From Cyanobacteria bacterium QS_4_48_99 (GTDB lineage Bacteria > Cyanobacteriota > Cyanobacteriia > Cyanobacteriales > Rubidibacteraceae), in contig PXPT01000138.1 in assembly GCA_003021505.1 (NCBI GenBank), forward strand, positions 1-33,463: a stretch of DNA of 33,463 nucleotides, read 5' to 3'. Shown piece after piece: positions 13,585 through 31,760 of this stretch. The notes beneath the pieces were generated by a model. The model saw only the letters and a program-made list of their open reading frames with translations. It was not told the origin of the DNA and made no database searches. The number at the start of each line of letters is the position of its first letter. The first letter of the stretch is position 1. The translations under genes were made by a program, and so were the position numbers.

Positions 13585-13625
13585 TCGCTAATCGACAATG
13601 AGCAGGCGGACAATTAGCAATTAGC
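13580..13625. repeat. inverted repeat between the small ORF and speA
   Basis: GCTAATCGCTAAT at 13580-13592 pairs with ATTAGCAATTAGC at 13613-13625 (12 of 13 positions). The element overlaps the stop codon of the small gene. It could fold into a hairpin of 12 pairs and a 20-nt loop, possibly slowing transcription before speA. No T tract follows. The units also resemble the ATTAGCAATTAGC-type dispersed strings of cyanobacteria. Confidence 0.55.
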
Positions 13626-13641
13626 AGTGAAAAATTAGGAA

Positions 13642-15666
13642 ATGACTAAAAAGTCTTGGACAATTGAAGACAGCAAGAAGCTGTACGGAATTCAAGAATG
13701 GGGCGAACCTTACTTTTCGATTAATGCTGCGGGCCATATTACGGTTTCGCCTCAAGGGAGTCACGGCAGTTCTCTAGATTTATGGGAACTAGTAGAAGCC
13801 CTACAAAAGCGCAATCTGGGACTGCCGCTGTTAATTCGCTTTACCGATATTTTGGCTGACCGTATCGAGCGGTTAAATACTTGTTTCGCTAAAGCGATCG
13901 CTCGCTATCAATATTCTGGCAGCTACCAGGGGGTTTTTCCCATCAAGTGCAACCAGCATCGCCATCTGGTAGAAGCGTTAGTCGCATCTGGCAAGCCTCA
14001 TCAATTAGGTTTAGAAGTGGGTTCTAAGCCAGAGCTGATGATTGCCTTAGCGACTCTAGAGCCTGCCTCAGACGCCCTCCTAATTTGCAATGGCTACAAA
14101 GACCGCGAATATATCGAAACAGCCCTATTAGCAACGCGGTTGGGACAAACGCCCATAATCGCAATTGAGCAGCTCGAAGAATTGCCCCTGGCTATCGAGA
14201 TTAGCCAGCAATTAGGGATTTCCCCCGTGTTAGGAGTGCGGGCAAAGCTCACTACCAAAGGCTCAGGGGGTTGGGAAAATTCGAGTGGCGTAAGTACTAA
14301 GTTTGGTTTGACCATTCCCCAGATTCTAGAAGCCACAAACCGGCTCCAAGCCGCTGGGATGTTGCACTGTTTGCAACTGCTGCATTTTCACATCGGCTCG
14401 CAGATTTCGGCGATTGGCACGGTTAAAAATGCCATCCGTGAAGCCAGCCAGATTTACGTGGAACTGAGACGATTGGGAGCCAATATGCAATATCTCGATG
14501 TTGGGGGCGGTTTAGCAGTGGATTACGACGGCTCTAAAACCAGAAGCCACGCCTCGAAAAATTACAACATGCAGAACTATGCCAACGACATTGTGGCAGA
14601 AGTGAAAGAAGCTTGCGAAGCTGGGGAAATTCCTGCGCCAATGCTGGTGAGTGAAAGTGGGCGAGCGATCGCTTCCCATCATTCTATCCTCATTTTCGAC
14701 GTTTTGGGCAGCAGCGACACTGCCTCTACCCCTCCTCCCCCTGTAGAGCAGAAAGAACACCTCATCATCCGCAACCTCTGGGAAACCTACGAATCAATTA
14801 GCGCCGAAAATTACCAAGAAGCCTACCACGATGCCATTCAGTTCCAACAAGAGGCAGTCAGTCTGTTTAGTTTTGGCTATCTCAGCCTCACCGAACGAGC
14901 CAGAGCAGAGCAACTTTACTGGGCTTGCTGTGAAAAGATTCTCCCCATCGTCCGCTATCAGGACTCGGTGAGCGATGACCTCAAAGACTTGGAAAACATT
15001 ATGGTGTCAAATTATGATGTCAACCTCTCAGTTTTCCGCTCTGCACCAGATTCCTGGGCAATCAATCAACTATTTCCCATCCTGCCCATCCACCGCCTCG
15101 ATGAAAAACCTACCCAGCGGGGAATTCTGGCAGACCTCACTTGCGATAGCGATGGTAAAATCGACCGATTTATCGACCCCCAGACTGGTCAATCCAAGCG
15201 AGTCTTAGAACTCCATTCTCTTCGGGAGGAGGACAAGGGGACAAGGGGATGCGGGGACACGGAGACAGATTGCTGGGCAAAAGGAGTACGGGCGACTCGG
15301 CGAGTCGCCCCTTCCGCGTCTTCCGAAACCGCATCTTCTTCCCGAGTGAAACAACCCTACTACTTAGGAATGTTTTTGGTGGGTGCATACCAAGAAATTA
15401 TGGGGAATTTACACAACCTCTTTGGTAACACCAACGTGGTTCACGTCCAGATGACCCCCAAGGGGGATCAGATTGAACAGGTTGTCAAAGGGGATACAGT
15501 CTCCGAAGTTCTCGGCTCTGTGCAATACGATGCCGAGGATTTGGTAGAGAGCATTCGCCGTCGCGCAGAGCACGCTTTACAAGAGGAGCGCATTACCTTA
15601 GAAGAGCAAGCGCGGTTGCTGCAAAACTATGAGCGCGGTCTCAATAGCTACACCTACCTCAGTTAG
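13642..15666 (+). CDS. speA: biosynthetic arginine decarboxylase, with an in-frame repeat insertion
   Basis: SpeA converts arginine to agmatine and CO2 in polyamine synthesis and arginine catabolism. It is PLP-dependent and cytoplasmic. Landmarks are PLP lysine K102 in GVFPIKCNQ, HFHIGSQ at 248-254, DVGGGLAVDYDGS at 286-298 and a C-terminal PYYLGMFLVGAYQEIMGN region from 572. The ORF is 674 aa. Residues about 529-569 (EDKGTRGCGDTETDCWAKGV and on) are not family-like: they break the normally continuous 'LHSLREG(E/Q)PYYLG' and are encoded by GC-rich repeat DNA with a perfect palindrome. The insertion adds about 120 nt and keeps the frame, so the enzyme may still work, with a roughly 40-residue loop near the active-site end. 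It stands alone with no clear operon partner. Confidence 0.95.
   Translation: MTKKSWTIEDSKKLYGIQEWGEPYFSINAAGHITVSPQGSHGSSLDLWELVEALQKRNLGLPLLIRFTDILADRIERLNTCFAKAIARYQYSGSYQGVFPIKCNQHRHLVEALVASGKPHQLGLEVGSKPELMIALATLEPASDALLICNGYKDREYIETALLATRLGQTPIIAIEQLEELPLAIEISQQLGISPVLGVRAKLTTKGSGGWENSSGVSTKFGLTIPQILEATNRLQAAGMLHCLQLLHFHIGSQISAIGTVKNAIREASQIYVELRRLGANMQYLDVGGGLAVDYDGSKTRSHASKNYNMQNYANDIVAEVKEACEAGEIPAPMLVSESGRAIASHHSILIFDVLGSSDTASTPPPPVEQKEHLIIRNLWETYESISAENYQEAYHDAIQFQQEAVSLFSFGYLSLTERARAEQLYWACCEKILPIVRYQDSVSDDLKDLENIMVSNYDVNLSVFRSAPDSWAINQLFPILPIHRLDEKPTQRGILADLTCDSDGKIDRFIDPQTGQSKRVLELHSLREEDKGTRGCGDTETDCWAKGVRATRRVAPSASSETASSSRVKQPYYLGMFLVGAYQEIMGNLHNLFGNTNVVHVQMTPKGDQIEQVVKGDTVSEVLGSVQYDAEDLVESIRRRAEHALQEERITLEEQARLLQNYERGLNSYTYLS
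15226..15348 (+). repeat. GC-rich repeat inserted in frame within speA
   Basis: The segment contains a tandem ACAAGGGG motif (15230-15250) followed by a perfect stem, GGGCGACTCG at 15290-15299 and CGAGTCGCCC at 15301-15310 with a one-base loop. Both types occur in cyanobacterial intergenic DNA. The length is a multiple of three and there is no stop in frame. The borders are approximate, set by where family-like residues stop and resume. Confidence 0.7.
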
Positions 15667-15671
15667 TAAAT

Positions 15672-15870
15672 GAGGTGAGGGGTGAGGAGTGAGAGAGTGA
15701 GGAGGTAGATGGGCTGGTTTGATAGAAAAATTTATTTCTATTTCCAACACTCTCACGCACTCACAGCTTTCACGCTTTCACTCCTTTCCCGCGTCTGCGC
15801 GTCCGCGCGTACCCATGTCCTTTTCTGTCACTCTCTCACGCGCTCACGCTCTCACGCTCTTACACCTCGC
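15672..15870. repeat. low-complexity dispersed element, copy 1
   Basis: Purine-rich GTGAGG-type units (15675-15705) lead into a core (15710-15747: TGGGCTGGTTTGATAGAAAA, then TTTATTTCTATTTCCAAC). The core is followed by CTCTCAC/GCTCAC pyrimidine units. The core matches, on the opposite strand, the copy at 17885-17955 at roughly 47 of 55 positions by eye. The right end reaches the msrA 3' end. Confidence 0.7.
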
Positions 15871-16314
15871 CTCCCAGTATTGTTGATGGCTCTCATCGGC
15901 TAAGTAGTAGGTAGAAGCTGGCTGAATCTGGGTGACAATTTCGCATGCGAACTTTCCCGAATTGGCAAGCTTGCGCTTTGACTTCCTGGCTGCTTCCTCC
16001 TGTTGCTGAGTGTGGAAAAAGATGACAGAGCGATATTGTTCCCCTCTATCAGGACCTTGGCGGTTAAGCTGTGTAGGGTCGTGAATCGACCAAAACACCT
16101 CCAGCAGCTCCTCATAACTCACTTGTTCCGGGTCGTACTCTACTTGTACAACCTCTGCGTGTCCCGTAATCCTAGATAGAACATCGAGATAACATGGGTT
16201 CGGAAAATGCCCACCCATGTATCCCACGGACGTCGATTTCACGCCCTCGAGTTTGCGAAACGCTGCTTCTATTCCCCAGAAACAGCCAGCACCAAAGGTA
16301 GCTTTTTGCATCAT
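15844..16314 (-). CDS. msrA: peptide methionine-S-sulfoxide reductase MsrA
   Basis: MsrA repairs oxidised methionine (S-sulfoxide) in proteins. The start at 16314 gives [16 protein letters not shown], with the catalytic cysteine in GCFWG. The further upstream codons (from 16335) are not family-like. The body shows the expected [32 protein letters not shown] (conserved aspartate and glutamine region) and YRSVIFFHT. Length is about 156 aa, slightly short. After ESHQQYWEA the C-terminus (RCKSVRA and stop) is encoded by the dispersed pyrimidine-rich element, suggesting the original end was replaced. The gene is convergent with speA and lies downstream of ispH on the same strand with an intergenic gap of about 80 bp. 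Confidence 0.93.
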
Positions 16315-16392
16315 CCCAACAACCCAAAATGGCAAAACAAACTAATTCAGAACTCTGAACTCGTGTGACCAACAATTAACAACTGGCTTGGC

Positions 16393-17601
16393 TTACCCCA
16401 CGACTGCTGGTGCTTTTAGCTCAAAAATCTTTTCAATCGCCTCTTCCACCACTCGATCCGGGGTTGAAGCACCAGAGGTCACGCCGATGACAGTTGACCC
16501 TTCGGGAAGCCAGTTTTCGCTCACTTCTAAATCTTTGCCAAGTGGCTTATGTTCAATGCGATTTCCCAAACCAATCCGTTCGGCGCTATCAATGTGATAA
16601 GAAGGAATGCCACGCTTGATCGCAATCTCTTGCAGGTGAGTTGTATTTGAGGAATTAAAGCCGCCAATAACCACCATAAGGGAGAGGTCTTCTTTGACTA
16701 AATCAAACATGGCATCTTGGCGCTCTTGCGTGGCATCGCAGATGGTGTTGAAGCTCATGAAATGGTTATTTCCCTTGGTAGGACCATATTTTTTGAGCAT
16801 GGTGCGCTCAAACAGCTTCCCAATCTGTTCTGTTTCGCTTTTGAGCATGGTGGTTTGGTTGGCAACGCCGACGTAGTCTAAATCTTTGTCGGGGTCAAAT
16901 CCAGCCGAGCTTGCCTCCCCAAATTTGCTCATAAATTCTTCTTTGTCCCCACCGTGGAGAATGTAGTCGGCAACGTATTCTGCCTCTTCTAGATTGAGTA
17001 CAACCAGATATTTATCGGCAAAGGAACTGGTGGCAACTGTTTCTTCGTGATGGTATTTGCCGTGGATAATGGAGGTATAGCGGCGTTTTTTATGCTTCTC
17101 CACCGAACTCCAAACCTTGGATACCCAAGGGCAAGTGGTATCGACAATTGTGCAACCCTTGTCATTGAGAAGTCGCATTTCGCTGACGCTAGCGCCAAAG
17201 GCTGGTAGGATAACTACGTCGCCATTACCGACAACAGAGAAGTCTTTCTCTCCGTATTCGACTGGAATGAAGCCCACTTCCATTTCCCGCAAGTGCTGAT
17301 TCACCGAAGGGTTATGGATAATTTCGTTAGTAATCCAGATTTGCTGATTGGGGAAGTGCTGGCGGGTTTCGTAAGCCATTGCCACCGAGCGTTCCACTCC
17401 CCAACAAAAACCAAATGCTTCTGCTAGGCAAATGGTGACATCGCCTTGTTGCAGTCGATAGTTGTTGTTGCGAATTTTGGTGATGAGACTGCTTTGATAC
17501 TCTGACTTAAGAGTTTCACTAACTTCGGCTTCATGACCAAAGCCCTTGCGGTGATAATTTTCAGATTTGTGAAGCGATCGCTTAAAAGCTTTTGTATCCA
17601 T
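16393..17601 (-). CDS. ispH: 4-hydroxy-3-methylbut-2-enyl diphosphate reductase
   Basis: IspH makes IPP and DMAPP, the last step of the MEP isoprenoid pathway, in the cytoplasm, using a [4Fe-4S] cluster ligated by three cysteines. The ligands are visible as C66 in [13 protein letters not shown]157 in [10 protein letters not shown] and C288 in [10 protein letters not shown]. The acid pair E186-E187 in [10 protein letters not shown] is at the expected proton-donor site. At 402 aa it is the longer cyanobacterial/plastid form, with an N-terminal extension before residue 50. The ATG at 17601 fits this. No Shine-Dalgarno sequence is obvious. msrA follows on the same strand after roughly 80 bp. Confidence 0.96.
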
Positions 17602-22544: not shown

Positions 22545-22690
22545 AATCGGGGAAAGGTGAGGAGTTAGGAGTGAAGGTTGCAGGTTAAAGGTTAAAGGTT
22601 AAAGTTTTTTCCCCTGCTCCCCCTGCTTTTCCTGCCTCCTCTACTCCCCTGCCTCCTCTGCTCACGCCCTCGCGCCTCACTACTACACTA
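22545..22690. repeat. low-complexity intergenic repeat with GGTTAAA heptamers
   Basis: GTGAGGAGTTAGGAGTGAAG is followed by AGGTTGCAGGTTAAAGG and further GGTTAAA units (three in tandem near 22583-22604), then CCCCTGCTCCCCCTGC runs and CTCACGCCCTCGCGCCTCAC. The purine-left, pyrimidine-right layout resembles copies 1 and 2 near msrA-ispH but lacks their core. The heptamer recurs at 31688-31716. Confidence 0.6.
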
Positions 22691-31035: not shown

Positions 31036-31389
<354 letters not shown>

Positions 31390-31680: not shown

Positions 31681-31760
31681 TAGGTTCGGGTTACAGGTTA
31701 AAGGTTACAGGTTATGAGCAACCTTCAACATGCAACTTTTAACCTTCAACGTTGCATGAG
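31681..31760. repeat. GGTTAAA-type repeats and hairpin between yggT and accC
   Basis: GGTTACAGGTTAAAGGTTAC and further units are followed by CATGCAAC (31729-31736) and GTTGCATG (31751-31758), a perfect 8-bp inverted repeat that overlaps the accC stop. Similar heptamers occur at 22575-22605. The hairpin could act for both convergent genes, but no long T tract is present. Confidence 0.55.

Follow-up and report, generated by a model that had tools for sequence, protein, structure and literature searches.

An in-frame insert in the speA gene of a cyanobacterium, probably composed of the genome's own dispersed repeats

The arginine decarboxylase gene speA of Cyanobacteria bacterium QS_4_48_99 contains a repeat-rich insert, which is read in frame and lengthens a turn of the enzyme that comprises only seven residues in relatives of the same family. 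We consider it very probable (roughly 85%) that this insert is a composite of dispersed repeats of the host genome, in which an octamer array is joined by a REP-like palindrome and by a C-rich array in inverted orientation, and that it entered the turn after the split from the family relatives. All coordinates refer to the window, i.e., the whole analyzed stretch of 33,463 nucleotides (contig PXPT01000138.1).

The speA insert and its empty site in family relatives

Comparison of SpeA with PDB entries yielded 3nzq (E=3.2e-146), with 3n2o and 3nzp as further relatives; the match to the structure from E. coli was interrupted between query residues 513 and 570. The gene is the sole full-length speA copy of the genome, and its product has kept TCDSDG as well as the invariant columns of a 45-sequence alignment. 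The frame is intact, with conserved motifs on both sides of the insert (Table 1).

Table 1. Features of the speA region
Feature	Position	Strand	Remarks or basis
speA, biosynthetic arginine decarboxylase, 674 aa	13642..15666	+	open frame, insert within
Composite repeat insert, about 40 added residues between LELH and YYLG	15226..15348	+	all six frames open
G-rich octamer array (GGGGACAA/GGGGATGC/GGGGACAC/GGAGACA), encodes EDKGTRGCGDTETD	15231..15267	+	period 8, 4.6 copies
Perfect palindrome GGGCGACTCGGCGAGTCGCCC, 21 bp, dispersed REP-like element	15290..15310	.	direct inverted-repeat scan
C-rich remnant, octamers inverted (CTTCCGCGTCTTCCG...CCGCATCTTCTTCC)	15312..15342	-	sequence; predicted fold
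Spacer directly 3' of speA: G-rich GTGAGGA array, then C-rich TCACGC/CGCGTCCG arrays	15675..15860	.

The initial annotation had described a GC-rich repeat at this place, with tandem units and a perfect palindrome, which keeps the frame, gives no stop and adds some 40 residues, and all of this was borne out. The GC content of the insert (123 nt) is 62.6% versus 49.3% in the remaining speA gene. Copies of the octamer array match each other by 79%; the array is degenerate, ACAAGGGG occurring twice in clean form, followed by ATGCGGGG, ACACGGAG and other variants. The residues added to SpeA include a EEDKGTRGCGDTETDCWAK stretch. The palindrome consists of two 10-bp arms separated by a single nucleotide (GGGCGACTCG-G-CGAGTCGCCC); no other inverted repeat of the 33-kb window combines arms of 10 bp or more with a gap of 6 bp or less. 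In the predicted RNA fold of the insert (-53.2 kcal/mol; z -3.06 relative to dinucleotide-shuffled sequences), the C-rich remnant base-pairs with the 5' octamer array. The same architecture was seen in the spacer directly downstream of speA, whose RNA fold gave a z of -5.2. No Rfam family was found in the region 13600-16400.

All seven relatives of the same family that possess a complete speA gene lack the insert, which establishes the polarity of the event. In five of them the turn between LELH and YYLG has seven residues (PLEKKQP, PLETHHP, PLDNNQP, PLENNQP and PLTENQP) compared to 47 in the SpeA protein of the window, while in two family relatives, G002 and G003, the aligned blocks are just 15 and 6 nt apart. 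In a tree of 101 SpeA proteins calculated without the loop, the window protein joined the short-looped family relatives (SH-aLRT 96). Relatives carrying a conserved segment of the same length without repeats, which would have contradicted an insertion, did not emerge within the family; outside it the segment shows no conservation, varies in length between 6 and 85 residues and is itself tandem-repeat DNA in several lineages. The view that a conserved block (LHSLRE/PYYLG) had been split must be modified accordingly: both sides are conserved, but the site itself is an already length-variable turn, which was lengthened. The insertion is dated against family relatives, and its bracketing is not close, the genus being represented in the comparison by this genome. 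We infer that the insert site is probably an exposed turn; the assignment is based on the length variability because, when SpeA was modelled by AF2 together with 45 relatives, the C-terminal domain was poorly predicted (most of residues 456-629 had a pLDDT of about 30).

The insert DNA matched 46 places in its own genome. With up to one mismatch, the octamer 18-mer GGGGACAAGGGGACAAGG gave 34 matches here versus zero to two per family relative; a further genome of the same order, more distantly related, gave 14. The palindrome (up to two mismatches) was detected at nine genomic places versus none for its reversed control. As a scan with a degenerate octamer 16-mer allowing two mismatches hardly exceeded its reversed control, octamer arrays were counted by TRF instead. 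The repeats were mostly intergenic in this genome and also lay in frame in many genes, in agreement with the earlier notion that intergenic repeats have invaded a gene.

As an alternative, a Y1/HUH transposase of the RAYT type might act in trans on the palindrome, perhaps even on the whole composite, and move it as a REP-like element, an explanation we regard as unlikely. The genome contains six places with PF01797 (L176-L181), three of them without internal stops, and GTAG or CTAC lies beside several copies of the palindrome, which recalls the GTAG-tagged REPs (PMC3733652). However, the speA copy has GTAC instead of GTAG beside its hairpin, the frames with PF01797 have just 57-149 aa, like TnpA of IS200/IS605, and the copies of the palindrome are few (9). 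The PF01797 places would thus be no more than candidate mobilisers of the palindrome.

Repeat arrays in other genes and in a sister genome

Insertion of the genome's own repeats is not confined to speA. Repeats of the same type lie in frame within the genes for SMC, MenD, MutS2, an acyl-CoA synthetase, Mfd, a CrtI/CrtD-like protein, PriA and a GH15 protein; in UbiH-like and TrmJ-like proteins they form an extension of the C-terminus. More short arrays were found within MurD, MenE, AmiC-type amidases and DnaG. These names rest on visual inspection of conserved sequence and not on a family search. When set against their orthologues in two family relatives, MurD, MutS2 at its first site, Mfd, DnaG, PriA, AmiC and the CrtI/CrtD-like protein are longer exactly at the repeat, in a comparison that also took in MenD, the acyl-CoA synthetase and the second site of MutS2, but not SMC. 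MenD is not clearly longer than the family orthologues, and at the acyl-CoA synthetase site and the second site of MutS2 the relatives carry non-repeat sequence of near-equal length. To judge by these lengths, some repeats may have replaced variable sequence rather than inserted.

In MurD (L156 9564-11114; G000:C86:49564-51114, minus strand) about 48 repeat residues (GVRGAEEQRSRGVEGQ...HLGTWAPKPPHASRLTPHSAHS) are absent from the family orthologue. MutS2 (L088 3-1796) has two in-frame repeat segments, one of which resides in the ATPase domain between SRIIEA and SLVLLDEVGAG. The UbiH-like (L084 1500-1541) and TrmJ-like (L093 1500-1539) genes end within an octamer array that supplies the last C-terminal residues. 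As called mechanically, a photolyase-like gene (L159 8027-9796; G000:C166:48027-49796) begins with a long N-terminal extension derived from repeats; its true start may lie further downstream.

To quantify the arrays, those with a period of 7-9 and at least three copies were counted in this genome on contigs picked by number, not by matches. In 449 kb, 19 arrays were internal to genes and 38 intergenic, compared to 2 internal and 73 intergenic arrays in 400 kb of the sister genome G004 (p=1.5e-6); a few of the internal ones may sit in over-long 5' ends, the gene calls being mechanical. An array was present in 12 of the 281 genes of at least 150 aa in this unbiased sample. The counts are conservative, since the speA array itself (score 39) fell below the cut-off of 40 and was not included. 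Over 866 kb of the 3.62-Mb genome, octamers were about equally distributed (25 internal, 24 intergenic) versus 10 internal and 62 intergenic heptamers (p=1.4e-5); octamers drive the in-gene excess of this genome. The content of stop-free units was rejected as the cause of the difference between the two genomes because arrays open in all six frames were nearly equally frequent in both (42% here, 37% in the sister genome).

The octamer unit is free of stops on both strands, and every sense frame was computed to give the peptide GDKGTRGQ in rotation. That the three sense frames agree follows from the period, 8 not being divisible by 3. Peptides of this type were seen in SMC, MutS2, the acyl-CoA synthetase, UbiH, TrmJ and SpeA. 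On this basis we tentatively put forward, with somewhat less than even confidence, that the octamer family is lineage-specific and blind to the reading frame, that it enters genes almost as readily as spacers and that several per cent of the genes, among them those for MurD, DnaG and SMC, have gained flexible linkers from it. MurD is a cell-wall enzyme that is essential in most bacteria, as are DnaG and SMC.

The most likely course of events would begin with repeats spreading widely across the genome, perhaps by slippage plus recombination or by transposase-assisted copying of hairpins, with survival then filtering the copies. Those breaking the frame, carrying stops or striking the core of a protein would be purged, while those in exposed turns would persist as flexible linkers, provided that hydrophilic stop-free inserts are tolerated as we suppose. 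The octamer would pass such a filter well because it yields the same stop-free, hydrophilic (GDKGTRGQ)n in all three sense frames.

Adjacent arrays not more than 150 bp apart followed a fixed order. A G-rich array preceded a C-rich one in 23:0 cases in this genome (866 kb) and in 8:0 cases in the sister genome (400 kb), and both the speA insert and the downstream spacer obey this order, which is identical on both strands, like an inverted arrangement. True inverted-repeat pairing of these array pairs found no support, as their own arms were no more complementary than permuted ones (P=0.59); the polarity is strict, and simple arm pairing did not account for it. The G-rich strand was the coding one in 31 in-gene arrays and the C-rich strand in 13 (p=0.0096), many of the latter being C-rich partners of G-rich arrays. 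The window contains two more places with adjoining G-rich and then C-rich arrays, at 22574-22663 and 31689-31750 (AAGGTTA; GGTTACA/CAACCTT). Furthermore, 17 CAG units in a run are located at 31193-31245, outside the larger ORFs.

The SpeA turn in other cyanobacteria

The SpeA turn is a recurrent hot spot, with arrays in at least four other cyanobacterial lineages. At the same turn, Symploca carries arrays of GACGCGGG, GGAGATGG, AACAACC and TTCCCAA, Moorena an AATCCCA array, the Stenomitos/Leptolyngbya group ACTCCCC, CTCATCC and GAAGTCA arrays, and Xenococcus a TTCAAAA array; turns filled in this way reach 85 residues. The array of Symploca SIO2E6 belongs to the octamer family of the window's insert and has 48 other matches in the SIO2E6 genome. 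When the presence of an array was mapped on the SpeA tree, at least four changes were required, three of which are forced by well-supported branches. Separate gains appear to be the simplest reading of this distribution; inside clades, loss and replacement from an older array would be an alternative to separate gain. The units differ among neighbouring lineages, even within the Stenomitos/Leptolyngbya clade, indicating that turnover is fast.

This variability bears on the question whether the speA array grew in situ, replication slippage having expanded a low-complexity linker that was long from the outset, and without insertion of a dispersed element. The hypervariable length of the site across cyanobacteria, the fast unit turnover even inside the Stenomitos/Leptolyngbya clade and the fact that some repeat sites in other genes retain the length of the relatives would all be compatible with slippage. 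Local slippage, however, cannot make a palindrome with eight further copies far away in the genome, nor octamers distributed genome-wide, and the starting turn in the family relatives has only seven residues. We judge growth in situ to be quite unlikely, slightly more so than mobilisation by a RAYT-type transposase.

A function of the insert as a regulatory mRNA hairpin, as a G-quadruplex or as a selected interaction loop of SpeA seems improbable to us. It would fit with the recurrence of arrays at the turn, with the G-quadruplexes formed by G-rich heptamers of Nostoc (PMC4692102) and with the folding of the insert, which is better than that of shuffles (z -3.06). Array-bearing SpeA loops of other lineages (L072, L034, L007 and L013), on the other hand, showed little or no excess of folding over shuffles (z -1.26 to -0.17), their sequences are unconserved, and many relatives manage with seven residues only. 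That the insert is an assembly or sequencing artefact is hardly credible: although the assembly is a repeat-rich draft of 196 contigs, its rated completeness is 99.9% and its contamination 0, the frame is exact to the base between two conserved flanks, and many independent genes show the same pattern. An intein or intron was dismissed, as 40 residues without conserved sequence are too short, and a programmed bypass over the hairpin is unneeded in a frame that is open throughout.

Relation to known repeat systems

In-frame invasion of genes by repeats is already known as a kind, from the palindromic elements of Rickettsia (RPEs) and from the G-rich repeats of Nostoc. For the octamer, its frame blindness, the contrast to the sister genome and the recurrent use of the SpeA turn, we found no description in the literature searched, as far as our searches show. 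The reduced genomes of Rickettsia are the best-known case of short repeats invading core genes in frame; the present data reveal a high rate in a cyanobacterium. The sister genome, with equally many arrays but almost none in genes, offers a natural comparison for what admits repeats into proteins, and the SpeA turn with its unrelated arrays provides a ready test of neutral insertions against new enzyme surfaces.

In terms of behaviour, RPEs are the closest known system. PMC10969869 and PMC3733652 describe them, with reference to Ogata et al. (2000, 2002), as in-frame palindromic repeats in many genes. In both cases dispersed palindromic repeats of one lineage occupy intergenic regions and also sit in frame inside numerous unrelated genes that are likely functional, and conserved genes have received in-frame insertions whose sites are empty in relatives (here SpeA, MurD, Mfd, DnaG, PriA, the first site of MutS2, and AmiC). 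RPEs, however, form defined families of about 150 bp, whereas the speA insert is a loose composite of an octamer array, a 21-bp palindrome and a C-rich array. It further differs by its cyanobacterial host and by the octamer peptide, which is equal in every sense frame due to the 8-base period. Compared to the RPE hairpin of about 100-150 bp, the insert folds with a z of -3.06, but across the composites of the genome the two arms of one are no more complementary than arms taken from two of them (P=0.59), and array-bearing SpeA loops of other lineages showed little excess folding.

Cyanobacterial genomes with dispersed tandem arrays of short G-rich units are also known from the STRR and the Nostoc heptamers. 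For heterocyst formers, the title of Vioque (1997), cited in PMC4748335, places STRR in the gene for RNase P RNA; the GGGGA(C/T)T heptamers of Nostoc PCC 7120 are 68% intergenic and about one-third intragenic (PMC4692102). The speA array has a period of 8 and thus lacks the 7-base unit of STRR. Unlike in Nostoc, it is octamers that lie in genes here (25/24), the heptamers of this genome being mostly outside (10/62), and the in-frame fusion to core enzymes has been compared with orthologues.

A further likeness exists to other small dispersed palindromes. Very small mobile repeated elements of cyanobacteria, reportedly described by Elhai et al. in 2008, are similar in kind. Some GTAG-tagged REPs are located wholly within ORFs (PMC3733652). 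The speA palindrome differs from these in having no GTAG tag, GTAC preceding its hairpin, and in being fused to octamer arrays; the GTAG tag was present beside some other copies of the palindrome in the genome.
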